Shown in pieces: positions 2,204 to 25,646 of a DNA stretch of 34,836 bases. How positions within the stretch are numbered: the stretch's first letter is position 1; every line of letters begins with the position of its first letter. Source of the stretch: an uncultured Clostridia bacterium. Lineage in GTDB: Bacteria > Bacillota > Clostridia > Peptostreptococcales > Anaerovoracaceae. The stretch lies in the NCBI GenBank assembly GCA_934277495.1, contig CAKQUI010000007.1:1-34836 (forward strand), written 5' to 3'. The notes below the pieces were generated by a model. It was not told the origin of the DNA. It did not search any database and was given only the letters and a program-made list of their open reading frames with translations. A program made the position numbers and the translations under genes.

Positions 2204-2208
2204 AAAAA

Positions 2209-2243
2209 CACCTCCAAGCATTATCAATAATATGCCGGAGGTG
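2209..2243 (-). promoter_or_regulatory. Hairpin sequestering the murA Shine-Dalgarno
   Basis: In the murG-murA gap the mRNA carries CACCTCC (2243-2237), which is perfectly complementary to GGAGGTG (2215-2209), the murA ribosome site. A second helix GCAT/ATGC stacks inside (2235-2232 with 2221-2218), leaving a 10-nt loop. The anti-SD strand begins only 9 nt after the murG stop codon. A ribosome terminating on murG could therefore open it, which would couple murA translation to murG. The pairing is visible; the coupling is inference. Confidence 0.6.
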
Positions 2244-2252
2244 CATCATCTG

Positions 2253-3359
2253 TTACTTCGATACTGACTCGAATATACGGTCACATATTATGCCTGCTGC
2301 TCTGACAGGTGCGCAGGCTGCACTTTTTTCTGCCATATCCTTCAGTACTTCCGGGTCGTTTTTCAGTTTCAGTATTTCTGAAACCAGTGTTTTCTCATGA
2401 AGATCTTTTTCTTCTATCACGACTGCACCGCCTCTTTGTGCCACTGACATGGCATTGAAGAACTGATGGTTTCCTGTTACCACCGGAGATGGTATGAACA
2501 CAGCAGGTTTACCGCACATGGTTATCTCAGCGATGCTGAGCGCACCGCTGCGGCTTACTACAAGATCAGATGCCATGAGATATTTCGCCATGTCATGTAT
2601 ATATTCTATCAGTGTTATATTGTCTGAAAGCGTGACTCCCCGGTCTTCAAGCTCCTTATGTATGGCATCGTAATAATATCCGCCGGTGGCCATGAATATC
2701 CTGAAATCACTGACACCGTTGAAATTCCCTATCACGTCCATCATTGCCTTGTTTATCTGACCTGCACCCTGGCTGCCTCCGAAAGACAGCAGCACGAAAT
2801 CGTCTTCACGTATACCGAGGCTCTTTCTTGCTTCATCTCTGTTGATGTTGAGGAAATCAGCTCTCACCGGGTTGCCTGACACTATATGCTTGTCGGGATA
2901 TCTGAAATGATCCGAGCCTTCGCCGAATCCCAGGAAAACATTCGTGACCTTCTTCTCCAGCAGCTTGTTTGTCATTCCCGGAACTACATTCTGCTCCTGT
3001 ATGAATGTCGGTATCCCGAGGCGCTGAGCCATCCTGACAACCGGAGCACTGGCGTAACCGCCTGTCCCTACGACTACATCAGGCTTGAATTTTTTAAGTA
3101 TTTTTTTCGACTGAGAGCTGCCCTTTCTGAGCTTCATCAGCACATCTATGTTCTTGAGGAGGTTTTTCCTGTTGAAACCGTCCGTAGTTATGAGTTCGAT
3201 GTCATAACCGTTTTCAGGAACTATAGTCGTTTCCATGCCTATTTCTGCACCTACGAACAGTATCTGTGCGTCTTTATCACGCCGGCGTATTTCATCTGCT
3301 ATAGCGATGGCCGGATAAATATGTCCGCCTGTCCCTCCGCCTGTCATTATAACTTTCAT
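2253..3359 (-). CDS. murG: Lipid II synthase MurG
   Basis: A peripheral membrane GT-B glycosyltransferase that adds GlcNAc from UDP-GlcNAc to undecaprenyl-PP-MurNAc-pentapeptide (lipid I). It opens with the MurG signature GGGTGGHIYPAIAIADEI. The C-terminal half has the donor-binding features LSFGGSQGAGQINKAM and the RSGALSIAEI...GKPAVFIPSP block. Length (368 residues) is normal. I chose the ATG at 3359: AGGAG lies 9 nt upstream, whereas the TTG at 3368 directly abuts that site. The start is 1 nt from the ftsW stop. Confidence 0.95.
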   Translation of the reverse strand: MKVIMTGGGTGGHIYPAIAIADEIRRRDKDAQILFVGAEIGMETTIVPENGYDIELITTDGFNRKNLLKNIDVLMKLRKGSSQSKKILKKFKPDVVVGTGGYASAPVVRMAQRLGIPTFIQEQNVVPGMTNKLLEKKVTNVFLGFGEGSDHFRYPDKHIVSGNPVRADFLNINRDEARKSLGIREDDFVLLSFGGSQGAGQINKAMMDVIGNFNGVSDFRIFMATGGYYYDAIHKELEDRGVTLSDNITLIEYIHDMAKYLMASDLVVSRSGALSIAEITMCGKPAVFIPSPVVTGNHQFFNAMSVAQRGGAVVIEEKDLHEKTLVSEILKLKNDPEVLKDMAEKSAACAPVRAAGIICDRIFESVSK

Positions 3360-3360
3360 T

Positions 3361-4506
3361 TTATTCAACTCCTGTATTTCTTATCTCATGCCTTGAAATA
3401 TTGATAAGCACACCCACTGAAAACATGAAGATCAGCAGTGCGTTGCCTCCGTAACTGATGAACGGCAGATTTATACCTGTAGGAGGCATCGATGAAGTGA
3501 CTACTGCTATATTCAGTATCACCTGTATCGCCACCATCAGTACTATACCTGAAGCCAGAAGCATCCCGAACTGATCCGGTGCATTCAGCGCTATATGGAT
3601 ACCTCGCCATATGAACAGGCAGTATATCGCCAGGAGCACCATCAGCCCTATGAATCCAAGCTCCTCTCCGATGATAGCGACTATGAAGTCGTTCTGCGGT
3701 TCCGGCAGGTAAAGATTTTTCTGTACGCTTTTACCAAGACCTACTCCTGTCAGTCCGCCTGAACCCAGCGCCAGCAGCGACTGTACTACCTGATACCCGT
3801 CTCCGAGAGGGTCCGCAAAAGGATCCATAAAACTCGTCAGTCTCTTATGCCAGTGTCCGTTGTTGGTCATCAGTATAGCGACTACGCCCAGCGCTCCGGC
3901 ACCTACAGCTCCTATGCAGTATCTCCATTTAAGGCCTGCGACAAGCATCATCGAAAAGATTATGCCGCATACTGTTATAGCGGTCGAAAGGTTCGGCTGC
4001 TTCATTATCAGACCTCCGAACACTGCAGCTACAAGAAGCAGCGGCAGGATGCCTCTGAGAAAGGATCTTATCCTTCTGGTGTCTCTGCTGAGAAACGATG
4101 CTGTGAATACTATGACAGCCAGCTTGGCAAGCTCTCCCGGCATCACAGTCACCGGACCAAGTTTGATCCATCTCGTCGCTCCGTTGGTAGTCACTCCAAG
4201 AGGCGTCATCAGAAGGAGCAGCAGCACAAAAGAGATCCCCAGAGCGATCAATGCGAATCTTGAGTTATATTTCCTGTAATCCACAGTTGCTCCCAGCATC
4301 ATGAATACGAATCCTACCACGATCCACATCCCCTGTTTCAGCAGATAGCTGTACGGGGAACCTGAGTGACTTATCGAATAATAATAGCTTGCGCTGAACA
4401 CCATTATCAGTCCGAACAGCACAAGAATCATCGTGAACAGCACAAGAAGGAAATCGCCTGATTTCAGATTTTCGATCTTTTTCTTTCTCTTTACCCGCTT
4501 TTCCAA
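3361..4506 (-). CDS. ftsW: SEDS peptidoglycan polymerase FtsW
   Basis: A polytopic SEDS-family glycosyltransferase of 381 residues that polymerises lipid II at the septum with its partner class B PBP. The basic N-terminal tail is followed by about ten hydrophobic segments. Family signatures are present: FSASYYYS in TM1, GDGYQVVQSLLALGSGGLTG, PEPQNDFIVAIIGEELGFIG and PTGINLPFISYGGNALL. The SpoVE paralogue is an alternative, but the position between murD and murG in the dcw cluster favours a division role. The start codon is TTG, with GTGGAG unusually close upstream (3 nt), so initiation may be weak or coupled to murD, whose stop is 9 nt away. Confidence 0.92.
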   Translation of the reverse strand: MEKRVKRKKKIENLKSGDFLLVLFTMILVLFGLIMVFSASYYYSISHSGSPYSYLLKQGMWIVVGFVFMMLGATVDYRKYNSRFALIALGISFVLLLLLMTPLGVTTNGATRWIKLGPVTVMPGELAKLAVIVFTASFLSRDTRRIRSFLRGILPLLLVAAVFGGLIMKQPNLSTAITVCGIIFSMMLVAGLKWRYCIGAVGAGALGVVAILMTNNGHWHKRLTSFMDPFADPLGDGYQVVQSLLALGSGGLTGVGLGKSVQKNLYLPEPQNDFIVAIIGEELGFIGLMVLLAIYCLFIWRGIHIALNAPDQFGMLLASGIVLMVAIQVILNIAVVTSSMPPTGINLPFISYGGNALLIFMFSVGVLINISRHEIRNTGVE

Positions 4507-4515
4507 TACTCCACG

Positions 4516-5895
4516 CTACCTTTCCAGTTCATGCACACATGACTTGAAATGTCTGCCTCTCTGTTCAAAGCTGGTATACATATCCCAGCTTGCACATGCC
4601 GGTGACAGCAGTACTACGTCTCCCGGCTCTGCTATCCTGTACGCTTCTCTGACACACGACTCCATATCCTTGAGTATTATCGAATTCGTGAAGCCTGCCT
4701 TTTCTGCGGCTTCTTTTATCTTTGAAGCGGTCTTTCCTATCAGCAGCAGTGCTTTGACCCTGCCGTCAAATGCAGCTACGAATTCGTCAAAAGATGCATT
4801 TTTGTCGTATCCTCCGGCAATCAGGATTATATTTTCTTTCATCGCCTCTATTGCTTTTATCGCTGCATCCGGATTCGTGCCTTTTGAGTCGTTCACGAAT
4901 CTTATGCCATCTATTTCATTGCACAGTTCTATCCTGTGTTCAACGCCTTTGAAAGACCTGAGCGTCTGTGCTATCACCTGTGGATCTATGCCTCCGAAAT
5001 ATGCGATGGCACATGCTGCCAGTGCGTTTTCAAGGTTATGCGATCCCGGGATCTGCAGTTCGTCAGCTCCGCATATCTCTACAGTCTTTCCAGCTTCGTC
5101 TCTGACAGTTATCTTTCCGTCCTTGACAAAAGCTCCGAAATCAAGTTCCTCTTTCCTGCTGAAAGGCACTACCTTCGCTTTGCAGTCGTCTGCCAGCGCC
5201 AGGCATACCTTGTCGTCATAGTTTATCACGCAGTACTGGTCTTCACTCTGGTTTTTGAATATCTGAGCCTTTGCTTCACCATATCTTTCCATTGTTTTGT
5301 GGCGGTCCATATGATCAGGCGTAAGATTGAGTATGGCTGATATCTCCGGCCTGAAATCCCTTGTAGTTTCCAGCTGGAAACTGCTTGTTTCTGTGACGAG
5401 CCAGCTGTCGCTTTCCGCTGACAGTGCCTTTGAAATCACAGCGACGCCTATATTGCCTACAACATAGGTTCTTCTTCCTGACGCCTTGTATATCTCACCT
5501 ACCAGTGTAGTGGTGGTAGTCTTGCCGTTTGTTCCTGTTATAGCTACATAGTTGCCGTTTCCGACCCTGTATGCTATCTCAAGCTCTCCTATTATCTCAG
5601 CGCCTGCAGCTCTGGCCTCTTTTATGAATCCAAGCTCCGGTGAAACTCCGGGACTGAGTATCAGCATATCGAAAGCACTCATATCATCAGGCTGACAGCC
5701 AAGATAGCATGTTACATTTTTATCCCGGAGGAATGCGATCAGCTGAGTGTCTATATCGCCTTCATTCTTGCTGTCCTGGACAGACACGTCTGCTCCCAGC
5801 TTTACCATTGCCTGCACTGCGGCCTTTCCCGAATTGCCCAGACCTATAACGAGTACTTTTTTCCCTTCTATGCTTGTATGTTTTCTGTTTTCCAT
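4516..5895 (-). CDS. murD: UDP-MurNAc-L-alanine:D-glutamate ligase MurD
   Basis: A cytoplasmic ATP-dependent Mur ligase that adds D-Glu to UDP-MurNAc-L-Ala. The N-terminal Rossmann-like domain (VLVIGLGNSGKAAVQAM) binds the UDP moiety. The central domain has the ATP loop GTNGKTTTTTL and the TPDHMDRH motif. The C-terminal domain has NDSKGTNPDAAIKAI and the terminal SPACASWDMYTSFEQRGRHF block typical of MurD. The ATG at 5895 (459 residues) is chosen because AGGAG lies 9 nt upstream; the ATG at 5904 touches that site directly. Confidence 0.95.
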   Translation of the reverse strand: MENRKHTSIEGKKVLVIGLGNSGKAAVQAMVKLGADVSVQDSKNEGDIDTQLIAFLRDKNVTCYLGCQPDDMSAFDMLILSPGVSPELGFIKEARAAGAEIIGELEIAYRVGNGNYVAITGTNGKTTTTTLVGEIYKASGRRTYVVGNIGVAVISKALSAESDSWLVTETSSFQLETTRDFRPEISAILNLTPDHMDRHKTMERYGEAKAQIFKNQSEDQYCVINYDDKVCLALADDCKAKVVPFSRKEELDFGAFVKDGKITVRDEAGKTVEICGADELQIPGSHNLENALAACAIAYFGGIDPQVIAQTLRSFKGVEHRIELCNEIDGIRFVNDSKGTNPDAAIKAIEAMKENIILIAGGYDKNASFDEFVAAFDGRVKALLLIGKTASKIKEAAEKAGFTNSIILKDMESCVREAYRIAEPGDVVLLSPACASWDMYTSFEQRGRHFKSCVHELER

Positions 5896-6007
5896 CTGTA
5901 TCATCTCCTAAACCGTTTATTTCAAATCTGAGCCGCTGTGCAGACATCATACCTCTGCCGGACAGCTCTGATCATAATTCCCATGCCGGCTGCAAAGCCG
6001 TTCGTTT

Positions 6008-6032
6008 CAGTACTTCATTTCCTGAAATACTG
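6008..6032 (-). repeat. Intercistronic hairpin after mraY
   Basis: Four bases after the mraY stop the transcript can form CAGTA/TACTG plus TGAA/TTCA with one C-A mismatch and a 5-nt loop. No U-tract follows, so it is not a classic terminator. It may stabilise the upstream mRNA or set the mraY:murD ratio. The rest of the 141-nt mraY-murD gap shows no gene. This is the longest gap inside the dcw cluster. Confidence 0.45.
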
Positions 6033-6036
6033 GTCA

Positions 6037-7002
6037 CTATATGATAATGAACCCTGCTATGCAGCATAATATCGCAAATATCCAGAACGCTATAACGACC
6101 TGCACTTCTGTATATCCGCATTTTTCAAAGTGGTGATGTATCGGCGCCATCTTGAAAATACGTTTGCCTCCGCTGAGTTTGAAGTATCCTACCTGTATAA
6201 TGACAGAAAGTGCTTCGATCACATAAAGCAGCCCCACTATCGGAAGCATGAGCTCCAGCTTCATGACTATCGCTGCTGCCGCAAGTCCGCCTCCAAGCGC
6301 TAGCGACCCTGTGTCGCCCATAAAGACTCTGGCAGGGTTCCTGTTGAAAACGAGAAATCCCAGGCATGCACCGCAGAGTGCACTGCAGAAAAACGAACCT
6401 GAACATACACCGTATACAAGACCTGCAACTGCAAAGAACAGCGAAATGAACGCAGTGGAACCTGCTGCCAGTCCGTCGAGTCCGTCTGTAAGATTCACAG
6501 CATTAGTCATTGCCAGCATCACGAATACTATGAATGGTATGTACATGATACCGAAATCCACGTTGATATTTGCAAAAGGGATGAATACGAATGTGCTTCC
6601 GTCTGAATATCCTGCCAGATAGACAGCCAGTATCACTGAAAAAATTATCTGAAGTCCGAACTTCTGGTACGCTCTGAGTCCCAGATTGTTTTTCTTTATT
6701 ACTTTCAGATAATCGTCAAAAAATCCGATCAGCCCGAAGCCTGCGAATACAGCTATTATTATTATTACCTCCGAAGCACGGCCTCCGAATATGAAATATC
6801 CTGCTGCACACGCTACAGATGCAGCGATTATTATCGCTATGCCTCCCATGCTCGGCGTACCTGCTTTGGAAAGATGCGACTGCGGACCGTCTTCTCTTAT
6901 ATTCTGTCCTGCCTTGCGCTTCAGGATCGGTATTTCGTATTTCGTTATCAATACTGAGATCAAAAAAGCTATTATGATTATTATTCCTATACTGATATAC
7001 AT
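6037..7002 (-). CDS. mraY: Phospho-MurNAc-pentapeptide translocase MraY
   Basis: An integral membrane enzyme that transfers phospho-MurNAc-pentapeptide from UDP to undecaprenyl phosphate to form lipid I. The 321 residues hold about ten transmembrane segments. Family motifs are GTPSMGGIAII, the Asp pair GFFDDYLKV, NAVNLTDGLDGLAAG, GDTGSLALGG and the cytoplasmic histidine loop MAPIHHHFEKCG. The start has AGGAG about 8 nt upstream, lying within the last codons of murF. Only 2 nt separate it from the murF stop, so the two are co-translated. Confidence 0.96.
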   Translation of the reverse strand: MYISIGIIIIIAFLISVLITKYEIPILKRKAGQNIREDGPQSHLSKAGTPSMGGIAIIIAASVACAAGYFIFGGRASEVIIIIAVFAGFGLIGFFDDYLKVIKKNNLGLRAYQKFGLQIIFSVILAVYLAGYSDGSTFVFIPFANINVDFGIMYIPFIVFVMLAMTNAVNLTDGLDGLAAGSTAFISLFFAVAGLVYGVCSGSFFCSALCGACLGFLVFNRNPARVFMGDTGSLALGGGLAAAAIVMKLELMLPIVGLLYVIEALSVIIQVGYFKLSGGKRIFKMAPIHHHFEKCGYTEVQVVIAFWIFAILCCIAGFIII

Positions 7003-7004
7003 CC

Positions 7005-8405
7005 TTACAACTCCTGATATTCTATAAGTTTTTCCACAATGTCTTCCATTTTCATGCCTCTTGAGCCTTTTACAAGTATGATATCGCCTTTGCCTGCGAA
7101 CTCTCCCAGTCTGGCATAAAATTCTTCTTTAGTGCTGAAATACATCACTTCTGCTCTGCCGCCCTGCGCACCTTCAAAGATCTCACGGGCGTCGCTGCCG
7201 ACTGCAATGATGCGGTCTATATCAAGACCTGCTGCAAATCTGCCGACTTCACGGTGCTGCATCCTGCTTTCATCACCAAGCTCGAACATATCTCCGAGTA
7301 TCGCTGTCCTCTTCGAACCGCTTTTCTCAGGCAGCGGACTGTTTTCAAGCACCTTGAGCGCACTTTTCATCGAGTCCGGACTGGCGTTGTATGTATCGTC
7401 TATCACATCCGCCTGTCTGCCTCTGATATATCTCAGCCTTCTGCCTGTCAGCTCAAGTTTCGAAAGTCCTTTCAGAGCATCCTCTGCACTGACGTCAAGC
7501 AATTCTCCCGCTGCAACAGCAACAGCGCTGTTCACTGCATTATGTTTTCCCGGAACAGGAAGTCTGACATCAAGCGTCTTTCCTTCATGTTCCAGTGTAA
7601 ATTCTATACCCTCGATACCCCTGTCGTCAATATTTGAAATCACATAATCGCAGTCCTTATCTGTACCTGCCGAGACCTGTCTGTAATCACCGGCCGTGGA
7701 CTCTTTTGTGAGCATATCGCTCTTTTCAAAAATAAGTGTGCCGCTTTCAGATATATGACCTGCAAGCTCCATCTTCGCTTTGAAAATGCCCTCTCTGCTA
7801 CCGAGGTTCTCTATATGTGCGACGCCTATATTTGTTATTATCCCTATATCCGGTCTTACTATCCCGGCAAGACGGTCGATTTCGCCATATCCGCTCATTC
7901 CCATCTCAAGGACTACCGCTTCGGTACTGCTGTCGAACTGGAATATCGACAGAGGCAGACCTATGTCGTTGTTGTAATTTTTCATGTTCCGGCCGCATAC
8001 ATACTTCTCGCTGAGTATGTAGTATACCATATCACGCACCGATGTTTTGCCGACGCTGCCTGTGACTGCTACTTTCCTGACATCAAGTTTGTCAAGATAG
8101 TATCCTGCAAGCTCTCCCATGGCGTAGACTGTATCCTCCACCATTATGACAGCTGTGCCTTCTGCACGGGCTTTTTCAAGCCAGGGGCCTTCATGGGACA
8201 CCATAACTGCCGCAGCTTCTGATGATATGACGCTTTCTATATAGTCATGACCGTCGTTTTTTTCTCCGCATACAGCTACGAACAGATCTCCTGCTCCACA
8301 TTCTCTGGAATCATGTCTGACGCCTGTTATCAAAGTTCCTGCATCACCTGACAGGAGCCGTCCCTTCGCAGCATGCAATATTTCGTTTACTGATATCTTA
8401 TCCAT
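7005..8405 (-). CDS. murF: UDP-MurNAc-tripeptide:D-Ala-D-Ala ligase MurF
   Basis: A Mur ligase of 466 residues that adds D-Ala-D-Ala to the UDP-MurNAc-tripeptide, completing the pentapeptide. Seen motifs are the N-terminal DSRECGAGDLFVAVCGEKNDGH substrate domain, the ATP loop TGSVGKTSVRDM, the NYNNDIGLPLS segment and the C-terminal DDTYNASPDSM and GDMFELG blocks, all characteristic of MurF rather than MurE. It starts 6 nt after the penicillin-binding protein gene. The murE gene that usually sits between them is absent. The ribosome site is poor (TAGAG), so coupling to the upstream gene is likely. Confidence 0.95.
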   Translation of the reverse strand: MDKISVNEILHAAKGRLLSGDAGTLITGVRHDSRECGAGDLFVAVCGEKNDGHDYIESVISSEAAAVMVSHEGPWLEKARAEGTAVIMVEDTVYAMGELAGYYLDKLDVRKVAVTGSVGKTSVRDMVYYILSEKYVCGRNMKNYNNDIGLPLSIFQFDSSTEAVVLEMGMSGYGEIDRLAGIVRPDIGIITNIGVAHIENLGSREGIFKAKMELAGHISESGTLIFEKSDMLTKESTAGDYRQVSAGTDKDCDYVISNIDDRGIEGIEFTLEHEGKTLDVRLPVPGKHNAVNSAVAVAAGELLDVSAEDALKGLSKLELTGRRLRYIRGRQADVIDDTYNASPDSMKSALKVLENSPLPEKSGSKRTAILGDMFELGDESRMQHREVGRFAAGLDIDRIIAVGSDAREIFEGAQGGRAEVMYFSTKEEFYARLGEFAGKGDIILVKGSRGMKMEDIVEKLIEYQEL

Positions 8406-8411
8406 TATGCT

Positions 8412-10409
8412 CTATTTATTGTATAAATAAACTTTACTTCCTTTCTTGACTTTCGTTCCTGCTGCCGGATACTGTTTGACAACAACGAAATCCTGTTTTT
8501 TCATGGCTTTCTTGTCTGTATCGTATTTCAGAGAATCTCCGCCCAGTATGCCTATGGCGTCACTCACGTTCTTGCCTGTGACATCCGGAACAGTGACTTT
8601 TTTGGCGTTCGCTTTTTCCTGGCTCTTCTTATCCGGAGATACATTCAGATAGCGCAGTGTATCCGAAAGTATCTGTTTTACTCCCGGTGCTGCTGTTACG
8701 CTGCCGTAATGGACTCCCTTAGGACTGTCCACAATAACAAGCACTGCCACCTGGGGATCATCTATCGGAGCCATCGCTATACATGATGAATATGTATCGT
8801 TGCTGTATCCTGTACCTGACTCGTTTATCTTGTCTGCAGTACCTGTCTTGCAGCCAACTCTGTATCCCGCTACTTTGGCGTTTCCGCCTCCGCCTTCTTC
8901 AACGACGTATTCCATTATATCACACATTTCGCTGGCTGTTTCCTCCGAAACCACCTGACGGACGATTTCCGAACTGAAACTCTGTACGGTCTTGCCGCTT
9001 GAGTCTTTGAGTTCCTTGACCAGTCTAGGCTTCATCATTTTGCCGTTGTTGCCAAGAGAACTTACTGCGGTTATCAGCTGTATCGGAGTAACTGCAACGC
9101 CCTGACCGAACCCTATCGTCGCCAGGCCTACAGGTCCTGCATTCTCCTTTGACTGCAGCAGAGCCGTGCCTTCTCCCGGAAAGTCTATACCTGTAGTTCC
9201 GGTTATGCCAAAGGTCGCCATATAATCGTAGAACTTATCTATACCTATCTTGCTGGCAAGCTGTACGAATACAGGGTTGCATGAATTTCCTACTGCCTCT
9301 TTCAGAGACTGGGTCCCATGAGTGTTAGGATATGCCCAGCAGTGTATCGTCTCCCCTGCCACCTGTATGGAACCGGTGCAGTTGTATGTCTGTTTAAGGT
9401 CAGTGACTCCCTCCTCCAGCGCTATAGACGTGGTCAGGAGCTTGAATGTCGAACCCGGTTCGTAAACATCGCATATCAGTGAATTTCTCCACATCTTGTT
9501 CCAGTAATCGACTTTCTCTGAGTCAGACATGTTTTTAAGCTTTTCCTGTTCGCTTTTGCTTGTCGGTGTCTTCGGATCATTCAGATCGAAATCCGGATTC
9601 TGTGCCATCGCCAGGATATCACCTGTTTTAGGATCCATAACGATAGCCATCGCTCTTTTGGCGCTGGTCTTTTTCATGACACGTTTCAGTGCTTTCTCCG
9701 TGTAATGCTGTATCGCCTGATCGAGCGTAGTAACCAGACTGTAACCGTCTTCAGCATTGTAATATCTTTCTTTGCCGTACGACAGTCTGTTGCCGCCTGC
9801 ATCAGTATAATTGACCCATCTTCCGGAAATCCCGCTCAGATATGAATTGTACTGACTCTCAAGTCCAGAAAGACCCTTGTTGTCATCAGTCACTGATCCC
9901 AGTGTATGGGATGCGAATGTACCGAGAGGATATGTCCTTTTCGTGTCTTCTGCTATCTCGACACCGCTAAGTTCAGCATTCCTTATTTTATCCGCTGCTT
10001 CCTTGTCTATTCCTTTTTTGACCTTGACTATTGCCTGTTTCGTTTCGACGAGCTCTCTGAGCTCGGATTCTTTCATCCCTGTATTTTCTGCAAGTACCTT
10101 GACAGTCTTGTCGACGCTGGCCTTTTTTTCTTCGGTCGTCTTGCCGCTGCTGACATCCGTCGGTCTGACCCATATAGTGTAGCATGTGGTGCTCACTGCC
10201 AGTTCATTGCCGTGAGTGTCATATATAGTGCCTCGCTCAGCCTCTATGGGAGTATCTCTTGTCTGCTGCTGCACCGCCTTTTCGGAAAGTTCGCTGCTTC
10301 TTACGATCTGTATCCAGCCCAGTCTCACACAGAGAGCTGTAAAGCAGACAAAGATTATTATCATCATTATTATCAGATTTCTCTTGCTGTTGTTTGATGC
10401 TGATACCAT
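8412..10409 (-). CDS. Class B penicillin-binding transpeptidase (PbpB/SpoVD-type, PASTA)
   Basis: A membrane-anchored D,D-transpeptidase of 665 residues that crosslinks septal peptidoglycan with FtsW. One N-terminal membrane segment lies at about residues 12-30. The PBP dimerisation domain follows (ERGTIYDTHGNELA). The transpeptidase domain has the active-site tetrad STFK at Ser320, SCN at 376-378 and KTG at 521-523. A single C-terminal PASTA repeat occupies about 600-665 (VPDVTGKNVSDAIGIL...PAAGTKVKKGSKVYLY). The dcw position argues for the division enzyme, but sporulation SpoVD has the same architecture and cannot be excluded, so no symbol is given. AAGGAG lies just before the ATG. Confidence 0.93.
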   Translation of the reverse strand: MVSASNNSKRNLIIMMIIIFVCFTALCVRLGWIQIVRSSELSEKAVQQQTRDTPIEAERGTIYDTHGNELAVSTTCYTIWVRPTDVSSGKTTEEKKASVDKTVKVLAENTGMKESELRELVETKQAIVKVKKGIDKEAADKIRNAELSGVEIAEDTKRTYPLGTFASHTLGSVTDDNKGLSGLESQYNSYLSGISGRWVNYTDAGGNRLSYGKERYYNAEDGYSLVTTLDQAIQHYTEKALKRVMKKTSAKRAMAIVMDPKTGDILAMAQNPDFDLNDPKTPTSKSEQEKLKNMSDSEKVDYWNKMWRNSLICDVYEPGSTFKLLTTSIALEEGVTDLKQTYNCTGSIQVAGETIHCWAYPNTHGTQSLKEAVGNSCNPVFVQLASKIGIDKFYDYMATFGITGTTGIDFPGEGTALLQSKENAGPVGLATIGFGQGVAVTPIQLITAVSSLGNNGKMMKPRLVKELKDSSGKTVQSFSSEIVRQVVSEETASEMCDIMEYVVEEGGGGNAKVAGYRVGCKTGTADKINESGTGYSNDTYSSCIAMAPIDDPQVAVLVIVDSPKGVHYGSVTAAPGVKQILSDTLRYLNVSPDKKSQEKANAKKVTVPDVTGKNVSDAIGILGGDSLKYDTDKKAMKKQDFVVVKQYPAAGTKVKKGSKVYLYNK

Positions 10410-10427
10410 ATCTCTCCTTTATAAATT

Positions 10428-10459
10428 ACCCGGACATATTTGCGCTCGGCTGTCCGGGT
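10428..10459 (-). promoter_or_regulatory. Strong hairpin in the ftsL-pbp leader
   Basis: A perfect 9-bp inverted repeat ACCCGGACA/TGTCCGGGT with a 14-nt loop sits in the 103-nt gap between ftsL and the transpeptidase gene, ending about 18 nt before the pbp start. Only a weak AATTT follows, so it is a poor terminator. It may attenuate, protect the 5' end of a processed mRNA, or modulate pbp translation. A weaker AT-only inverted repeat (AATATAA/TTATATT) lies at 10476-10503. Confidence 0.55.
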
Positions 10460-10512
10460 CCTGTATGCTCCTATGAATATAACATCACTACGGATATTAT
10501 ATTTTTTTGATG

Positions 10513-10962
10513 TCAGTTATATGCCTTATCCTTTATAATATCTGCAAATCCCTGAGCCGGCACATCATCCGATGATATGTATACCTGTTTTTTGGCGGCG
10601 GGATATACCATTTTGAGGGAATCCTTTGCCTCCTGCTCCACATACTTTATGTTGTTGGCGCTGTATACCTTGGCCTGAAGGTTCTCGATCTCTCCCTGAA
10701 GCACATTGTTGCTGTGCAGCATCGTGTTTATATCGAATCTTATACTTGCGGAATATGCAGTCATGATAATGCTTATGATCATCATCGCTCCCAGAAGGAG
10801 CACCGCTGTAAGCGCCAGCTTTTTACTGTTGCCGGAAGGTGCCGCAGACCTGTTCTCAGGCTTTTTTCTCTGCTGCCTTCTCCTGTCCTGTTCAGGCTTC
10901 ATATCAAAGCCGTACTTCTGATATTTTTTCTCGTATTCATACCATCTTTCAGGTGCTATCAT
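10513..10962 (-). CDS. ftsL: FtsL-like cell division protein
   Basis: A small bitopic protein of 149 residues. A basic, glutamine-rich cytoplasmic N-terminus of about 45 residues precedes one membrane segment (LALTAVLLLGAMMIISIIMT). A heptad-like extracytoplasmic coiled coil follows (NTMLHSNNVLQGEIENLQAKVYSANNIKYVEQEAKDSL, split here from neighbouring residues). FtsL pairs with DivIC and FtsQ/DivIB to regulate the septal synthase. Sequence similarity in this family is low, so the call rests on topology, size and position between rsmH and pbpB. GAGG lies 8 nt upstream; the start is 5 nt from the rsmH stop. Confidence 0.82.
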   Translation of the reverse strand: MIAPERWYEYEKKYQKYGFDMKPEQDRRRQQRKKPENRSAAPSGNSKKLALTAVLLLGAMMIISIIMTAYSASIRFDINTMLHSNNVLQGEIENLQAKVYSANNIKYVEQEAKDSLKMVYPAAKKQVYISSDDVPAQGFADIIKDKAYN

Positions 10963-10967
10963 GTCAG

Positions 10968-11906
10968 TTACCTCTTCTTTTCTATTACTCTGAGCTTGGC
11001 GCTCCTCGCACGAGGATTGTCCTCAAGTTCTTTTTTTCCTGATACTATAGGTTTGCCTGTGACTTTCACCACATCGGAAACCCTGCCGCATACGCACACG
11101 GGAAATTCCTTCGGGCATGTGCACGGATCGAGCCTGCGGCGGAATGCGTCCTTTACGATCCTGTCTTCAAGGGAATGGAAAGTTATTATGCATAGTCTTC
11201 CTCCCGGAAGCAGCACATCGCAGAATTCGTCTACTGCTTTCTTCAGCTGTTCCAGCTCTCCATTGACTTCTATCCTTATAGCCTGAAATGTCCTCTTGGC
11301 AGGATGCGGACCGTCTCTTCTGGCCGATGCAGGTATCGCTGCTTTTATCACATCTACAAGCTCACCGGTGGTCTCGATGGGTTTTTCTTTCCTGCGCTCT
11401 GTTATGAATCCGCTTATCCTTGAAGCCCATCGCTCCTCGCCGTAATCCTTTATCACCGATGTAAGCTGATCCCTGTCGTACCGGTTCACCACATCATAAG
11501 CTGAGAAAGAATCATTCCTGTTCATCCTCATGTCCAGCGGCGCATCGTGCATGTATGAAAATCCCCTGTCAGCGTTGTCCAGCTGAAAGGAAGAAACACC
11601 TATATCAAGCAGTGCTCCGTCAAGACCCGGTATGCCGTTTCTTTCAAGTATGTCCTTTATGTTCGAATAATTATCCTGCACAAGTATCTTCCTGCATTCA
11701 AGACTCTCAAGTCTCTTACCGGCAGCTTCGATCGCATCGGCATCTCTGTCTATGCCTATCAGCAGACCCTCAGGTCCGAGTCTGGCGCCGATACCCATGG
11801 AGTGTCCTCCTCCACCCAGAGTCCCGTCGGCATATATACCACCGGGCTTTATCCTTAGATTCTCGATACATTCTTCGTATAGTACAGGTACATGTTTAAA
11901 ATCCAT
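10968..11906 (-). CDS. rsmH: 16S rRNA m4C1402 methyltransferase RsmH
   Basis: An S-adenosylmethionine-dependent N4-methyltransferase of 312 residues acting on C1402 of 16S rRNA. It starts MDFKHVPVLYEECI and has the AdoMet loop DGTLGGGGHS, GIDRDADAIEAAG, and the C-terminal signature FHSLEDRIVKDAFRRR followed by a cysteine cluster (CTCPKEFPVCVCG) before the end. I chose the ATG at 11906, with GGAG just upstream inside mraZ, since residues before it are unlike the family. The gene overlaps mraZ by 11 nt, so translation is coupled. Confidence 0.95.
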   Translation of the reverse strand: MDFKHVPVLYEECIENLRIKPGGIYADGTLGGGGHSMGIGARLGPEGLLIGIDRDADAIEAAGKRLESLECRKILVQDNYSNIKDILERNGIPGLDGALLDIGVSSFQLDNADRGFSYMHDAPLDMRMNRNDSFSAYDVVNRYDRDQLTSVIKDYGEERWASRISGFITERRKEKPIETTGELVDVIKAAIPASARRDGPHPAKRTFQAIRIEVNGELEQLKKAVDEFCDVLLPGGRLCIITFHSLEDRIVKDAFRRRLDPCTCPKEFPVCVCGRVSDVVKVTGKPIVSGKKELEDNPRARSAKLRVIEKKR

Positions 11907-12336
11907 ATATCTCCAACCCTTCTGCTGCTTCGCTGGCATCCAGCAGTTCTCCTGTTTCGGGATCGAGCTCTGCATCCCAGAACTCTCTGCTCCATACCTC
12001 TATGGTCCGGTTGTTTCCTATCGTCACAAGTTCCTTTTCGATACCTGCATAGTCCTTCAGTTCCTGAGGCAGCGTAAGTCGCCCCTGCTTGTCCACATCA
12101 CACTCTGCAGCTGATGAAAAATAGTGTCTTTTCACCTTTCTCGTTCTCGGATTGCTCCTTGGAAGCTCGTCCAGCTTGTCAGCAAGCTTCTGCCATTCAT
12201 CAACGGGATATATCGTCAGACACTCGTCCAGGGACTTTGCTATTATGCACTTCCCTCCGAGCTCTTCTCTGAATTTTGCAGGCACAATAAGTCTGGACTT
12301 GCCATCTATTGAATTGTTGAATTTACCTACAAACAT
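11896..12336 (-). CDS. mraZ: Transcriptional regulator MraZ
   Basis: A double AbrB-like DNA-binding protein of 146 residues. Both halves carry the family signature: SIDGKSRLIVPAKFREEL near residue 10 and DVDKQGRLTLPQELKDYA near residue 80. MraZ forms rings that bind tandem repeats upstream of its own gene and repress the dcw operon. The ATG at 12336 begins the typical MFVGKF and has GGAGG 7 nt upstream; the ATG at 12351 precedes that site. The tail after about residue 130 is acidic. Its likely binding sites are listed separately. Confidence 0.95.
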   Translation of the reverse strand: MFVGKFNNSIDGKSRLIVPAKFREELGGKCIIAKSLDECLTIYPVDEWQKLADKLDELPRSNPRTRKVKRHYFSSAAECDVDKQGRLTLPQELKDYAGIEKELVTIGNNRTIEVWSREFWDAELDPETGELLDASEAAEGLEIYGF

Positions 12337-12359
12337 CGAGACTCCTCCCATAATGAATT

Positions 12360-12431
12360 TACTCCATTTTAAACCACTTCACACCATTTATCAACAGAAT
12401 CGCTCCCTTTTGATGCAATTACACTCCATTT
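12360..12431 (-). promoter_or_regulatory. Array of MraZ-type operator repeats
   Basis: On the minus strand three units, AAATGGTGTG, AAGTGGTTTA and AAATGGAGTA, lie head to tail at exactly 10-bp spacing (12389-12360). A fourth, AAATGGAGTG, lies at 12431-12422 and a weaker one, AAAGGGAGCG, at 12410-12401, each 21 bp further upstream. Known MraZ operators are short TGG/GTG-containing repeats with about 10-bp spacing upstream of mraZ. The repeats cover the -10, the spacer and part of the -35 of the mraZ promoter, which fits autorepression. Confidence 0.75.
12366..12394 (-). promoter_or_regulatory. mraZ (dcw operon) promoter
   Basis: The minus strand shows TTGATA (12394-12389), a 17-nt spacer and TAAAAT (12371-12366). 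Transcription would start near 12358, leaving a leader of about 22 nt before the mraZ ATG. The element is overlaid by MraZ-type repeats, and its -35 overlaps a one-mismatch DnaA box (TTATCAACA, plus strand 12388-12396). Confidence 0.75.
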
Positions 12432-12441
12432 TTTGATTTTT

Positions 12442-12502
12442 TTATCCACAGTTCTTTTCTTTGAAAGTTATGCACAACTATATGTAGTGTGATTTATCCA
12501 CA
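12442..12502 (+). promoter_or_regulatory. Three phased perfect DnaA boxes
   Basis: TTATCCACA at 12442-12450, TTATGCACA at 12468-12476 and TTATCCACA at 12494-12502 all match the DnaA-box consensus TTATNCACA without error. They have the same orientation and a spacing of exactly 26 bp. A one-mismatch copy (TTATCAACA) lies at 12388-12396 over the mraZ -35, and a one-mismatch inverted copy (TTTGTATAA) at 12522-12530. The cluster lies between the divergent mraZ and lipoprotein promoters. Confidence 0.85.
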
Positions 12503-12588
12503 GCATCAACTACATATGCGATTTGTATAAATCACAGGAAAATATGTACAGAAAAGTCGTCAGCATATTCAGGATTTATCAAAACCCC

Positions 12589-12617
12589 TTGATATTACTG
12601 TGTTCAGAGTGTAGAAT
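12589..12617 (+). promoter_or_regulatory. Promoter of the lipoprotein gene
   Basis: TTGATA (12589-12594), 17-nt spacer, TAGAAT (12612-12617). The start would be near 12624, giving a leader of about 36 nt to the ATG at 12660. The nearest perfect DnaA box ends about 87 bp upstream of the -35. Confidence 0.7.
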
Positions 12618-12659: not shown

Positions 12660-13148
12660 ATGAACAGATTTAAAAGATTCAGTGGTTTATTGCTTGTTTT
12701 GTGTATGGTTTCTGTTTTCATTTTAGCAGGGTGCGGAGAAAAAAAATCAGGAAACACTATAGACGAACCTGAAATAACTGGAAATTACCTCAAAGAGGAC
12801 TATTCACAGCAGCTTCTCAACGATGGTGCTGAAACTATGATCGGCTTTGTCGACATGGAGAAGACTGACAGCGGATATTCCGTCCATGTCGTTGAGAAAG
12901 AAGTCGTAAAGAGTTCGTCTTACAAAGAAGGCTATTACATAGCTGATACAAATCTTGTGACCGACTTTACACTTGGCAGCGATGCACGTATCGCCTGCCT
13001 TGAAGACGGCAAGCTGGAAGTCGAATCGGCAGATGACTTCATAAAAAACAAGGCATCTCACAAAGACCAGTTATTTACGATATATATGATGGGTACATCA
13101 GCCGAGCTTATCCTCGGAACTGACCCGAAAGATGTCATGACAAAATGA
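12660..13148 (+). CDS. Small lipoprotein of unknown function
   Basis: A protein of 162 residues with a basic N-region, a hydrophobic core and the lipobox ILAGC, so it is probably cleaved before Cys25, lipidated by Lgt and held on the outer face of the membrane. The mature part is acidic and predicted soluble (GFVDMEKTDSGYSVHVVEKEV..., then an FTLGSDARIACLEDGKL segment). I do not recognise the family. GGAGAG lies just upstream of the ATG. The gene is monocistronic, with its own promoter and terminator. It is divergent from the dcw operon across the DnaA-box region, so it could share that control. Confidence 0.88.
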   Translation: MNRFKRFSGLLLVLCMVSVFILAGCGEKKSGNTIDEPEITGNYLKEDYSQQLLNDGAETMIGFVDMEKTDSGYSVHVVEKEVVKSSSYKEGYYIADTNLVTDFTLGSDARIACLEDGKLEVESADDFIKNKASHKDQLFTIYMMGTSAELILGTDPKDVMTK

Positions 13149-15407: not shown

Positions 15408-15860
15408 TCAGACTTTTTTCGTAAACTGCTCGCCGCAGTGCGGACACTTTATCCTTATTTTCCCTGCATTGCGGGGTACTCTGAGTTTCTCACCGCATAC
15501 AGGACATCTGAGAATCTTGTGTTCCGGATCCCTGCTTCTGCCAAAGCCGTATCCGCCGCTGCTTCTGCCGCCTTGCCTGCCAAAGCCTCCTCCGGCACTG
15601 TTTCCTCTGCCGCCTCTGAATCTTCCCACAAGCTGCATGAATCTCTGATTTTCTCCCATCCTGGCAGAGATGTTCCTGGAAAACATCCTTGAGTATGTGT
15701 AGATCAGCAGTATCAGTGTCACGAAATGCAGTATGCGTGATCTTGTGAACATATCTATGATGATCAGCACCATCGTCACAACAAGCAGGAACCTGTTGAG
15801 CTGGTCCACGCCATATCTGCCTCTCATTATTTCTGTGAGCCACATCCTAAACCTGCCCAT
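15408..15860 (-). CDS. Zinc-ribbon membrane protein of unknown function
   Basis: A 150-residue protein with two closely spaced hydrophobic segments (about residues 25-65), then a Gly/Arg-rich linker (GGRGNSAGGGFGRQGG...), then a C-terminal zinc ribbon CPVC-X15-CPHC. The ribbon would face the cytoplasm if the helical hairpin is correctly read. No function is known to me. The ATG at 15860 has GGAGG 9 nt upstream and overlaps the metH stop by 14 nt. It lies 25 nt before lgt, so it belongs to the met-lgt-ychF unit. Confidence 0.85.
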   Translation of the reverse strand: MGRFRMWLTEIMRGRYGVDQLNRFLLVVTMVLIIIDMFTRSRILHFVTLILLIYTYSRMFSRNISARMGENQRFMQLVGRFRGGRGNSAGGGFGRQGGRSSGGYGFGRSRDPEHKILRCPVCGEKLRVPRNAGKIRIKCPHCGEQFTKKV

Positions 15861-18270
15861 CACCAAATACCTCCTGTGCAGCTTCGACCGATTTCATAGC
15901 ATCCTTGCAGTAGTAATCTGCGCCGATCTGCTTCGCATAGTCCGGCGTCAGTACTGCACCGCCTGCCATGACTCTGCAGTCAGGTGCCGCCTGCTTGACT
16001 GCAGCGATAGTCTCCTCCATGCTCTTGAGAGTTGTGGTCATAAGAGCGCTGAGACCTACGAGTTTTATGTTTTTTTCAACAACCACTTCTACGATCTTCT
16101 CCACCGGTACATCTCTGCCCAGGTCGATCATTCTGTAGCCGTAATTTTCCATTATGACTTTGACTATATTCTTGCCTATATCGTGTATGTCGCCCTTTAC
16201 TGTAGCTATCACCACGTCTCCAAGAGAAACGCTTTCACTGCCGTTTCCTGCCAGACGTTCCTTTATGATATCGAAGCCTGCCTGAGCAGCTGTAGCAGCC
16301 TGCAGCATCTGAGGCAGGAATATCGTTCCTTTCTCAAAGCCCTTGCCGACATTGTCCAGAGCCGGTATAAGATAATCATTCACGACAGTCATCTCTTTGT
16401 TTTCTTCGAGAAGTCCGTTTACAGCATCCACAGTTTCTTTCCTGAGGCCTTTTTCTATGCTGTAGAAAATATCATGTGCTCCGCCGCCTGCCGGACCTTT
16501 TTCTCCGGCAGCACTTGTCTTCGCACTTATGGATGCTATCTGTCTGTCAGCATATCTTTCGATATATTCCGCTGCATTGATATCTCTGTTCTTCAGCACG
16601 TTGAATGCGTAAAGCGACGCCATCATATCCTCATCGTTCGGATTTATGATAGGCAGATCGAGACCACATTCCATGGCAAGTGTGAAGAAAGTCCTGTTCA
16701 CGATAGGTCTGAGAGGCAGTCCGAAACTTACGTTGGAAACTCCCAGCGCTGTCCTCAAACCAAGCTTTTCTTTTACCATCTTCACAGCTCTCAGCGTCTC
16801 ATTGACTTCCTTCTGCTGTGCAGACACAGTAAGGGTCAGACAGTCGATGATGACGTCCTCCCTCGGTATCCCGTAAGACTCCGCTTTGTCAGCTATACGT
16901 TCAGCTATTGCAAAACGCTCCTCGGCAGTCTTTGGTATACCGTTGTCGTCCAGCGTCAGTCCTATGACAGCTGCACCGTATTTTTTTACTATCGGCAGTA
17001 TCCGCTCCATCACTGCTTCTTCGCCGTTGACTGAATTGACTATCGGCTTGCCGTTGTATACACGCAGTGCAGCCTCTATAGCGTCAGGATTCGATGAGTC
17101 TATCTGCAGCGGAAGGTCTGTTATCGCCTGCAGCTTCTTGACTACTTCCGGAAGGACTTTCACGTCATCCAGCGACGGTACGCCTACGTTGACGTCCAGG
17201 ATCTCTGCTCCCGCATCTATCTGCTCGATAGCCTGGGACATGATATAATCGAAATCTCCGTCGAGCAAAGCCTGTTTCATGCGTTTTTTGCCGGTAGGAT
17301 TGAGTCTTTCACCTATGACAGTGACGTGATCCACCGTCACTGTCCTGCTGCCGCTGCATACTGCAAGGCCTCTGGCTCTTTTTTCTTTCTTTGCCTCTGA
17401 TGGCCTTTTCATGCCCTTGTACGCTGCAAGACCTCTGATGTATTCAGGGTCTGTACCGCAGCAGCCGCCTATCATGTTTATGCCTATATCTACATAATCT
17501 TTCATCTTTGCAACGAACTGCTCGCAGGTGATATCGTATTCACCTGTCACCGGATCAGGCAGACCCGCATTAGGCTTTATCAGCACAGGGATATCTGTCA
17601 GGCTCCTCAGCTTCTCTGCAAGAGGGAATATCTCAACAGGACCAAGTGAACAGTTTATACCCATGGCATCTACTCCCAGTCCTTCGAGAGTCAGAGCCAT
17701 AGCCTCGATGCTCACGCCTGTGAAAGTCCTGCCGTCAGCTTCGAATGTCATGGAAACTATGACAGGAAGATCGGTATTTTCTTTTGCTGCCAGCACAGCC
17801 GCCTTCATGTCATAAAGATCAGTCATCGTCTCTATCATGACAAGATCCGCTCCGTTTGCCGCTCCCAGCCTCATTATCTCGGAATATTCTTCATATGCGT
17901 CTTCGAAAGACAGCGTGCCCATAGGCTCCAGCAGTTCACCCAGATTGCTGACATCGAGGGCAACTTTTACCTCACGCCCTGATGCGGCAGCTTCCTCCCT
18001 GACAGCGACAGCTGCTGCCAGCGCTTTGCTTATGGCTTCTTCAGCCGGCATACCCAGTTCCTGTTCTTTGAAACGGCTGATGCCGAATGTTGCTGCCAGT
18101 ATTATGTCAGAACCGGCTTCCACATACTGTCTGTGTATGCTCTGGAGTATATCCGGGTGCGTCACTGCATAGCGTGCAGTGTCTTCTCCTGCTCCCGCAC
18201 CTGATCTCTGCAGCATCGTACCCATGCCGCCGTCAAGTATATATAATCTGTCGTTAAATTTTTTCTCCAC
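15847..18270 (-). CDS. metH: Cobalamin-dependent methionine synthase, short form lacking the activation domain
   Basis: Transfers methyl from methyl-THF via cobalamin to homocysteine. Domains run in order: homocysteine-binding barrel (residues 1-290) with zinc ligands Cys207, Cys270 and Cys271; pterin-binding domain (about 310-580, IGERLNPTGKKRMKQAL); cobalamin cap helices (about 600-675); and B12 Rossmann domain (680-807) with the cobalt-ligand motif DIHDIG at 694-699. The C-terminal AdoMet-binding reactivation domain of the roughly 1200-residue E. coli enzyme is missing; the adjacent upstream gene encodes it. The start is GTG at 18270 and overlaps that gene by 17 nt. Confidence 0.95.
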   Translation of the reverse strand: MEKKFNDRLYILDGGMGTMLQRSGAGAGEDTARYAVTHPDILQSIHRQYVEAGSDIILAATFGISRFKEQELGMPAEEAISKALAAAVAVREEAAASGREVKVALDVSNLGELLEPMGTLSFEDAYEEYSEIMRLGAANGADLVMIETMTDLYDMKAAVLAAKENTDLPVIVSMTFEADGRTFTGVSIEAMALTLEGLGVDAMGINCSLGPVEIFPLAEKLRSLTDIPVLIKPNAGLPDPVTGEYDITCEQFVAKMKDYVDIGINMIGGCCGTDPEYIRGLAAYKGMKRPSEAKKEKRARGLAVCSGSRTVTVDHVTVIGERLNPTGKKRMKQALLDGDFDYIMSQAIEQIDAGAEILDVNVGVPSLDDVKVLPEVVKKLQAITDLPLQIDSSNPDAIEAALRVYNGKPIVNSVNGEEAVMERILPIVKKYGAAVIGLTLDDNGIPKTAEERFAIAERIADKAESYGIPREDVIIDCLTLTVSAQQKEVNETLRAVKMVKEKLGLRTALGVSNVSFGLPLRPIVNRTFFTLAMECGLDLPIINPNDEDMMASLYAFNVLKNRDINAAEYIERYADRQIASISAKTSAAGEKGPAGGGAHDIFYSIEKGLRKETVDAVNGLLEENKEMTVVNDYLIPALDNVGKGFEKGTIFLPQMLQAATAAQAGFDIIKERLAGNGSESVSLGDVVIATVKGDIHDIGKNIVKVIMENYGYRMIDLGRDVPVEKIVEVVVEKNIKLVGLSALMTTTLKSMEETIAAVKQAAPDCRVMAGGAVLTPDYAKQIGADYYCKDAMKSVEAAQEVFGDGQV

Positions 18271-18901
18271 AGAATCTACCTTCTTTCTTCAATGTGCATT
18301 TTTCTCTGAGCACACATTCTCCACAAGTTGCCAGTCTGCCGCTGACGGGATGGTCTGCTATACCTATCAGAGCCGTTATGGACTTTCTCGGTATCATCAG
18401 GCTGTTGGAGTTGACATTGAGCCCGATCTTTCTCTGTCCATCCACAAGCCTTACGATGATGCTCTGGGTCTGTACAGGAAAATCACCATACCCCGGACTG
18501 AACCTGGATGTAGTGAACCCGTCGTTCTCCTCGCTTATCTTCATCTGATACACATCGCACAGCTGATCCACCAGCACAGATGCACCGCTGTCAAGGATGA
18601 CCGCCATAGCCATATCAGTGACCTGCTTTTTCTTTATAAGATTATCAACACCTATGCCGAGGGTAAGCGCCATCACTGCAACATGGTGACACCCTTCAAG
18701 GTGTTTCTGTATCGAAAATCCCTTCATTGGTATGACTGATCTGTCCACCACACGATATACTGCTTTGGGACGTGCATTCTTTATCAGCAGCTGCTCTGCT
18801 TCATCCAGCTGCGCCTCCAGCGCAGGATCGGGCTTGCCGTTTACCTGCAGATACGCCAGCCATTCTTTTCTTGAAATCTTTTCTGTAATATCTATATCCA
18901 T
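18254..18901 (-). CDS. Stand-alone methionine synthase activation-domain protein
   Basis: A 215-residue protein resembling the C-terminal reactivation domain of MetH, which binds AdoMet to remethylate oxidised cob(II)alamin. The motif RFSPGYGDFP at 134-142 matches the AdoMet-binding RxSPGYG loop of that domain. It ends in a cysteine cluster, Cys193-X2-Cys196-X5-Cys202-X8-Cys211, which full-length MetH does not have. This could bind a metal or an Fe-S cluster used for electron delivery (inference). The gene lies between metF and the truncated metH and overlaps metH by 17 nt, so the pair works as a split enzyme. The ribosome site is weak; coupling to metF (stop 1 nt upstream) is likely. Confidence 0.88.
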   Translation of the reverse strand: MDIDITEKISRKEWLAYLQVNGKPDPALEAQLDEAEQLLIKNARPKAVYRVVDRSVIPMKGFSIQKHLEGCHHVAVMALTLGIGVDNLIKKKQVTDMAMAVILDSGASVLVDQLCDVYQMKISEENDGFTTSRFSPGYGDFPVQTQSIIVRLVDGQRKIGLNVNSNSLMIPRKSITALIGIADHPVSGRLATCGECVLREKCTLKKEGRFCGEKI

Positions 18902-18902
18902 A

Positions 18903-19781
18903 TTATCTGTTTCCCGGAAGCAGATCCTTTATATCCTCGTATATCCTCAGCGCTACATCAGGATTGTTCATTATATAAAGATGTATGCCGTCAACTCCGC
19001 TCTTTATCAGATCTCTTATCTGCTTCACAGCATACTCGATACCTGCTTCGAACAGCTTGTCCGGTTCATGCTCGTACAGACCTATCATCTTAGTGAAATC
19101 ATGAGGAAGACTTGCTCCGCTCAGCGCAACGGTCTTCTCGATCTGTTTCGCATTGACGATAGGCATTATGCCTGCCGAAACCGGTACATTTATACCCATC
19201 TGTCTAGCCCTGCCCAGAAAATTGTAAAAGCACTGGTTGTCAAAGAACAGCTGGCTTACCAGCACCTTGACTCCTGCACCTATCTTGTATTTGAGGTTCT
19301 GTATGTCCTCTTCGAGAGATTTGCTCTCATAATGTCCCTCGGGATAGCATGCTCCGACGATCTCAAGGTCGTCGCTGCATTTGCGCTGCACTTCTATAGC
19401 AAGCTCGTTGGCATGTGCAAATTCACGCTTGATGTCCTCTCCCGGAACGATATCACCTCTGAGAGCAAGCACGTTCTCTATCTGGGCTTCTCTGAAACGG
19501 TTTATCATCTCAGAAACGTCGGCTTTTGTCGAATTGATACATGTCAGATGTGCCATCGTCTCTATACCGAAGCGCTTCTTTATCGTCGATGCTATCTCGC
19601 ATGTCGAGTTGTCTGCTATATTACCGCCTGCACCGTATGTCACACTTATGAAATCCGGCTTGCAGACAGTCAGTTTCTCAACTGTATCGTATATCTTATC
19701 GAGACTGGATTTTCTCTTGGGCGGGAATACCTCCATGGAGAAAACCGGTTTTTTCTTATTGTATAGTTCTGGTATTTTCAT
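18903..19781 (-). CDS. metF: Methylenetetrahydrofolate reductase MetF
   Basis: A cytoplasmic flavin-dependent TIM-barrel enzyme of 292 residues that makes 5-methyl-THF for MetH. Motifs seen: FSMEVFPPKR at the N-terminus, FISVTYGAGG with the conserved Thr-Tyr-Gly, HLTCIN, NVLALRGDIV with the folate-contacting Asp, and the C-terminal GVDGIHLYIMNN. GGAGG lies 7 nt before the ATG. As the first gene after a good promoter it likely heads a metF-activation protein-metH-zinc ribbon-lgt-ychF unit. The leader is only about 23 nt, too short for a SAM riboswitch. Confidence 0.95.
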   Translation of the reverse strand: MKIPELYNKKKPVFSMEVFPPKRKSSLDKIYDTVEKLTVCKPDFISVTYGAGGNIADNSTCEIASTIKKRFGIETMAHLTCINSTKADVSEMINRFREAQIENVLALRGDIVPGEDIKREFAHANELAIEVQRKCSDDLEIVGACYPEGHYESKSLEEDIQNLKYKIGAGVKVLVSQLFFDNQCFYNFLGRARQMGINVPVSAGIMPIVNAKQIEKTVALSGASLPHDFTKMIGLYEHEPDKLFEAGIEYAVKQIRDLIKSGVDGIHLYIMNNPDVALRIYEDIKDLLPGNR

Positions 19782-25534: not shown

Positions 25535-25546
25535 ATTGCCTCCTTG

Positions 25547-25564
25547 CAGTCCTCATTGGGACTG
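25547..25564 (-). repeat. Small hairpin before the hypE ribosome site
   Basis: CAGTCC/GGACTG with a 6-nt loop, ending 2 nt before the AAGGAGG of hypE. It could tune hypE translation. The rest of the 112-nt hypD-hypE gap has no other clear feature. Confidence 0.4.
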
Positions 25565-25646
25565 ACGTTCCAAAAACAGAGCCTGATCCGCCAGTGTATG
25601 TGGCAGCGTACTCTGCTGATATTCCTGCTTTTATAATTTACGAATG

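Follow-up and report, generated by a model that had tools for sequence, protein, structure and literature searches.

In many members of the family-level group examined here, the control region of the dcw cluster probably carries an operator for NrdR about 88 bp above the −35 hexamer of the mraZ promoter, held at a fixed helical phase, to which the genome analysed here appears to have added DnaA boxes. NrdR is a dATP/ATP-sensing repressor of ribonucleotide reductase (RNR) genes. Its operator is described as two 16-bp palindromes separated by a spacer of 15–16 bp (PMC12051234). A preliminary description of this DNA had proposed that the DnaA boxes extend a link between replication and division to this lineage. 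Conservation attaches not to the boxes but to an NrdR-type tandem operator, interleaved with the boxes and missed by that description, which many of the relatives share. Judged on sequence, this operator, phase-locked to the dcw promoter, is the stronger finding of the two.

The window (the whole 34,836-base stretch of DNA that was analysed) contains the dcw cluster from mraZ to an ftsQ-type gene near its left end (Table 1), the ftsL-like gene scoring below the Pfam cut-off. A 308-bp intergenic region separates mraZ from the divergent gene for a putative lipoprotein, a protein that matches no Pfam or NCBIfam family; 23 of 49 genus-set genomes have a homologue, which in several of them adjoins mraZ. 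Both genes are preceded by a promoter-like site (chance level of the scan, 1.9). Three TGG repeats lie over the mraZ promoter and resemble the repeats of MraZ autoregulation. Elsewhere in the window, a methionine synthase-type gene, a separate activation-domain-like gene and MTHFR follow one another at 15847–19781, whilst positions 24554–34821 hold hydrogenase-maturation-type genes (HypD, AIR-synthase family, HypF) and a CobW/HypB-type GTPase gene, with a ThiC fragment nearby at the end of the window.

Table 1. Features of the dcw locus and of the mraZ upstream region, in window coordinates
Feature	Coordinates	Strand	Remarks
Other dcw genes: rsmH, ftsL-like, division PBP, Mur ligase, mraY, murD, ftsW, murG	208–11975	−	domain matches
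Further dcw genes: EPSP-synthase family (murA-like), ftsQ-type POTRA protein	within 208–11975	−	
mraZ, first dcw gene	11896–12351	−	Pfam MraZ 1.3e-32; TIGR00242
TGG repeats (three, at 10-bp intervals) across the mraZ promoter	12361–12387	−	read from sequence
mraZ promoter-like site	12366–12394	−	−35 TTGATA 12389–12394, 17-bp spacer, −10 TAAAAT 12366–12371
DnaA box TTATCCACA, nearest to mraZ	12442–12450	+	perfect TTATNCACA match
DnaA box TTATGCACA	12468–12476	+	perfect TTATNCACA match; 2-base overlap with NrdR-type box 2
NrdR-type box 2, ACACTACATATAGTTG in mraZ sense	12475–12490	−	matrix score 17.7, top single site of the window
DnaA box TTATCCACA	12494–12502	+	perfect TTATNCACA match; within the spacer of the NrdR-type pair
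NrdR-type box 1, ATCGCATATGTAGTTG in mraZ sense	12507–12522	−	weaker half; matrix score 7.9
Lipoprotein promoter-like site	12589–12617	+	TTGATA, 17, TAGAAT
Divergent putative lipoprotein gene	12660–13148	+	lipobox by eye

The NrdR-type element of the window consists of two 16-bp palindromes, though box 1 is weak when taken alone. The step from box 1 to box 2 is 32 bp, leaving a 16-bp spacer that falls within the 15–16 bp of NrdR operators, and the centre of box 2 lies 88 bp upstream of the mraZ −35. A first scoring used an NrdR consensus and found the window pair equalled in 2 of 200 shuffles (p = 0.010). A matrix was also built from 30 boxes at the RNR and nrdR genes of relatives, none of them from mraZ, which limits circularity, albeit with training boxes that were themselves picked by likeness to the same consensus. 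With this matrix the pair scores 25.6, against 6.0 for the next pair in the window and 18.5 for the top of 61 shuffled windows.

Paired palindromes such as ACACAATATATTGTGT are also visible when the mraZ upstream regions of relatives are compared. Scored with the consensus, the window and nine relatives have pairs that begin between −168 and −171 relative to the start of mraZ at p ≤ 0.01, and a further relative (L002) has one at p = 0.06; many family rows have pairs as well. The matrix, applied at a threshold of 10, finds pairs with a 31–32 bp step before mraZ in 10 of 42 genus rows (including the window), 39 of 86 family rows, three of 26 order rows and two of 46 class rows, where shuffled upstreams give 0.1, 0.2, 0.1 and 0.1, respectively. 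Fifteen control spacing pairs yield 0–2 hits in the genus and 0–3 in the family. A spacer of 25–26 bp is described for the NrdR operators of some species (PMC12051234); pairs with a 41–42 bp step number one in the genus, four in the family and none in the order or class. One genus-set carrier by the consensus (L006) fails the matrix pair test.

On a tree of 70 MraZ sequences the pair is strongly clustered, requiring about eight changes compared with 23.2 in shuffles; the count is approximate, as L060 was scored as pairless though other scans found a pair there. This distribution is consistent with an old trait that was lost in parts of the genus group. MraZ from the window groups with the proteins of L002 and L003 (support 94/88), both of which carry the pair, L002 weakly, and across relatives the pair stays at mraZ despite changes of the upstream gene. 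Among named relatives, L011, from a species filed by NCBI under Anaerovoracaceae, is without the pair and L005, from a genus filed under Eubacteriaceae, has it.

The distance between box and promoter proved more constant than the sequence that fills it. When the mraZ promoter of each row is located from its own hexamers and TGG repeats, 11 of 42 genus rows and 48 of 85 family rows have a single box at 85–90 bp from the −35, and seven more family rows have one at 95–100 bp; 6-bp background bins between 130 and 300 bp average 0.07 and 0.14 hits, respectively. Sixty permuted symmetric matrices gave a mean of 1.8 hits at 85–90 bp against the 48 real ones, although one reached 32. The top box of a row reaches threshold in 69 of 127 rows, and of these boxes 54 lie at 86–89 bp from the −35, seven at 97–99 bp (one helical turn beyond), six at 118–120 bp (the place of box 1) and two elsewhere. 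The distance from box to ATG, by contrast, has a standard deviation of 40.9 bp, and 27 box-to-−35 segments of 80 bp share 35% identity against 29% when shuffled. A length kept to a base or shifted by about one turn, across sequence that is little conserved, points to bound proteins that must face the promoter.

Some observations count against an NrdR operator at this promoter. With its centre about 88 bp upstream of the −35, the site is distant for a simple repressor, the window's own box 1 is weak, and the box is both missing at this distance from 31 of 42 genus rows and rare outside the family group (two of 25 order and none of 37 class rows, the scan having met nine class and two order rows without a usable promoter call and one upstream, L077, that was too short). 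The shuffles that equalled the window pair under the consensus, the failure of L006 in the matrix pair test and the permuted matrix with 32 hits also count against it.

NrdR might also bind the pair and act elsewhere: on a hidden promoter within the operator, on a short RNA that terminates at a hairpin, or on the upstream or divergent gene. A terminator-like hairpin does lie between the pair and the mraZ promoter in L003 (2867–2904) and, by eye, in L002, L006, L007 and L008; the top promoter-like site of L062 and L063 begins just past box 2; and the window pair is upstream of the lipoprotein promoter too. Nevertheless, we hold action elsewhere to be unlikely, given that it is the distance to the −35 that is kept to about 1 bp whilst the distance to the ATG varies, and that the genes upstream of mraZ differ among relatives (by eye sfsA-like, acetyltransferase-like or lipoprotein). 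The hairpin, of which none was found between pair and promoter in the window, probably ends the upstream gene. A promoter hidden at box 2 was rejected: the box-2-anchored profile (53 rows, by eye) shows no −35/−10 pair, though the sites in L062 and L063 are candidates.

Evidence that such boxes belong to NrdR comes from the other genes that they precede. An nrdR gene was found in 14 of 14 relatives, and the one product tested belongs to TIGR00244 and matches a solved NrdR structure. A single site scoring at least 10 precedes 12 of 16 RNR loci of relatives (one of the misses having only 27 bp of upstream sequence), and an NrdR-type box precedes nrdR itself at all 14 loci (L027–L040), which suggests autoregulation of nrdR in these relatives. 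In seven of ten relatives (L319, L321, L323, L324, L326, L327 and L328) a box scoring at least 9 lies within 80 bp upstream of gyrB; several of these boxes overlap a −10-like TACAAT, and in L327 two boxes form a pair with a 32-bp step. These boxes suggest that gyrase is a further NrdR target and that the NrdR regulon of the clade may be wider than RNR.

The same genes bear on the possibility that the palindromes serve another regulator with an NrdR-like site, phased in the same way to the mraZ promoter. The attribution to NrdR was made from sequence alone, and the family profile shows an asymmetric, degenerate box 1, which leaves some room for such a regulator. Against it, the palindrome and the 31–32 bp step both fit NrdR, and the very relatives concerned carry matching boxes upstream of their nrd and nrdR genes, so that we consider another regulator improbable.

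The DnaA boxes themselves stand as first described: three perfect TTATNCACA sites between mraZ and the divergent gene, in one orientation and in exact 26-bp steps. They are the only perfect sites in the window. Shuffles of the whole window contain 1.37 such sites on average, and at least three anywhere in 15 of 100 cases, so the unusual feature is their clustering. When the 308-bp intergenic region is modelled at order 1, the probability of at least three on one strand is about 1e-5 (200,000 simulations, i.e. about two cases), which sets chance aside as the source of the array and upholds the earlier statement to that effect. Tandem duplication can also be dismissed, the 26-bp units sharing only six, two and four of 17 bases outside the box. 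The dnaA regions of relatives (11 loci) use the same words, TTATCCACA and TTATGCACA, with TTATCAACA among the one-mismatch sites, and all 11 loci have at least one perfect box no more than 200 bp before the dnaA frame. Because the array words match those at the relatives' dnaA regions, the three sites look like genuine DnaA boxes, and together they make up a cluster of several boxes of the organism's own type.

Other proposals about the array fared less well. The one-mismatch site reported at the mraZ −35 is present (12388–12396) but was rejected as a fourth DnaA box: it contains the −35 hexamer TTGATA, and while L007 and L008 have an identical 9-mer, the equivalent position in many relatives reads TTGCAA, TTGCGA or TTGACA, each of which breaks a DnaA box. 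The suggestion that a regular array could seed a DnaA filament is not favoured either, for steps of 26 bp, each about 2.5 helical turns, would place adjacent boxes on opposite faces of the DNA. A replication origin at the array was also considered and rejected: a scan of 29 of the window's 152 listed ORFs found no DnaA or other initiator domain, and in relatives boxes of the TTATNCACA type lie at dnaA.

Conservation of the array had been set beforehand as one half of a refutation test, by comparison of mraZ upstream regions, and on this half the proposal failed: none of 44 genus-set and none of 86 family-set relatives has it. The genus set comprises 45 genomes with an mraZ match less one partial match (G221), and includes some with short upstream sequence (L013, L014 and L119); the family rows are 86 of the 180 genomes with an mraZ match (197 in the group), namely 26 loci initially returned and 60 added, 40 of them next in rank and 20 spread lower. 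Even two or more boxes before mraZ occur in none of 41 genus-set and 86 family-set upstreams of at least 200 bp. Within 400 bp of mraZ, 40 of 42 genus rows including the window have no perfect box, L010 has one and the window three; in the family, 84 of 86 rows have none and two have one. The single box of L010 (TGTGCATAA) corresponds in position to the middle box of the window. A same-strand pair of boxes 10–30 bp apart was seen once in the genomes of 16 relatives (G003), away from dnaA. The nearest relative found has an MraZ identity of 81%; within the limits of these data, the array is an addition specific to this lineage. That the array is the main mraZ regulatory device in this genome and the palindromes are minor here is thus very unlikely, for although the boxes are perfect, improbable by chance and worded as at dnaA regions, DnaA is reported at the Bacillus subtilis ftsL promoter region (PMC8203912) and box 1 of the window is weak, no relative in either set has the array and in the window the NrdR-type pair remains at the distance that the relatives share.

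For an NrdR operator at the dcw promoter, with DnaA boxes added in this genome, the sequence-level basis is the pair, with its spacing, conservation and promoter-locked distance, together with the DnaA words; from these we infer binding, the direction of regulation and its purpose, as follows. NrdR loaded with ATP and dATP, the state expected when dNTPs are plentiful or go unused as replication has stopped, would bind the pair as a tetramer and kink the DNA; NrdR of Streptomyces coelicolor is reported to bind DNA when carrying dATP as well as ATP (PMC12051234). From its fixed face, bound NrdR would modulate the transcription of mraZ and of the genes that follow it, the ftsL-like and division PBP genes among them, so that the state of the dNTP pool could feed into division-gene expression. 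The effect is rather more likely to be a lowering of dcw transcription than a raising, activation being kept as an option because the site lies far upstream and NrdR is reported to activate topA in Pseudomonas aeruginosa. One DnaA box sits in the spacer of the pair, one overlaps box 2 by two bases and the last lies 26 bp further toward mraZ, an arrangement that might let DnaA compete or cooperate with NrdR. Full simultaneous occupancy of the sites by both proteins would hardly be possible, and the region may therefore switch between two replication-linked signals. That NrdR governs the division and cell-wall cluster (and probably gyrB) across the family-level group, with DnaA wired into the same operator here, we judge slightly better than an even prospect.

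The proposal that DnaA links replication to division at this locus through the array is partly supported. In favour are sites that use dnaA-region words, their place in the dcw control region and the reported B. subtilis precedent, where ChIP located DnaA at the ftsL promoter region in vivo (PMC8203912, source Goranov 2005); the lack of conservation in relatives speaks against it. The same review states that no major transcriptional effect of DnaA on the timing of cytokinesis has been demonstrated in any species (PMC8203912), and a 2024 study reports RsmH and PbpB levels comparable to wild type on arrest of replication initiation, with FtsL undetected (PMC11019786). As products of the same operon, the unchanged RsmH and PbpB count against the B. 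subtilis precedent.

For NrdR, a 2025 paper calls the regulon apparently RNR-specific (PMC12051234), whilst in P. aeruginosa NrdR is reported to raise expression of topA, a non-RNR target (PMC4409342). An Escherichia coli study mentions FtsZ once, in an interaction network with NrdR (PMC4898720). No paper on NrdR with mraZ or with gyrB was found in a search of open-access papers, and among the papers listed for NrdR with division terms no title names a link between the two. If the present reading is true, the NrdR regulon is widened beyond RNR, to which topA is already a reported exception (PMC4409342). The NrdR-type pair suggests a new way in which DNA supply and cell division could be connected, a matter of interest for the coupling of division to replication outside a few model species. 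The site of a metabolite sensor at a division control point, kept on one face of the helix throughout a family-level group, would be a direct and testable wire from the one to the other, through which nucleotide supply would set division-gene expression, with DnaA adding a second replication signal on one division switch.

Comparison with known systems brings out what is particular to this locus. The dcw promoter of the window has TGG repeats 10 bp apart, like the repeats of MraZ autoregulation, but the NrdR-type pair is a separate and more distal element. The pair resembles the NrdR operators of RNR genes in its two 16-bp palindromes and 15–16 bp spacer, and boxes of the same type lie at the RNR and nrdR genes of relatives; it differs in its target, which is mraZ and the dcw cluster and not an RNR operon, and in its place about 88 bp above the −35 at a fixed phase, making it a variant of the classical regulon. 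The topA gene of P. aeruginosa is likewise a non-RNR target (PMC4409342), with a single box where the window has a pair, at a division cluster and at a fixed distance. Finally, the presence of DnaA at the ftsL promoter region of B. subtilis and its boxes at nrdAB of E. coli likewise place it as a transcription factor at division or dNTP genes (PMC8203912), whereas the array described here is an exact set of three boxes, seen in a single genome, that interleaves with an NrdR-type operator.
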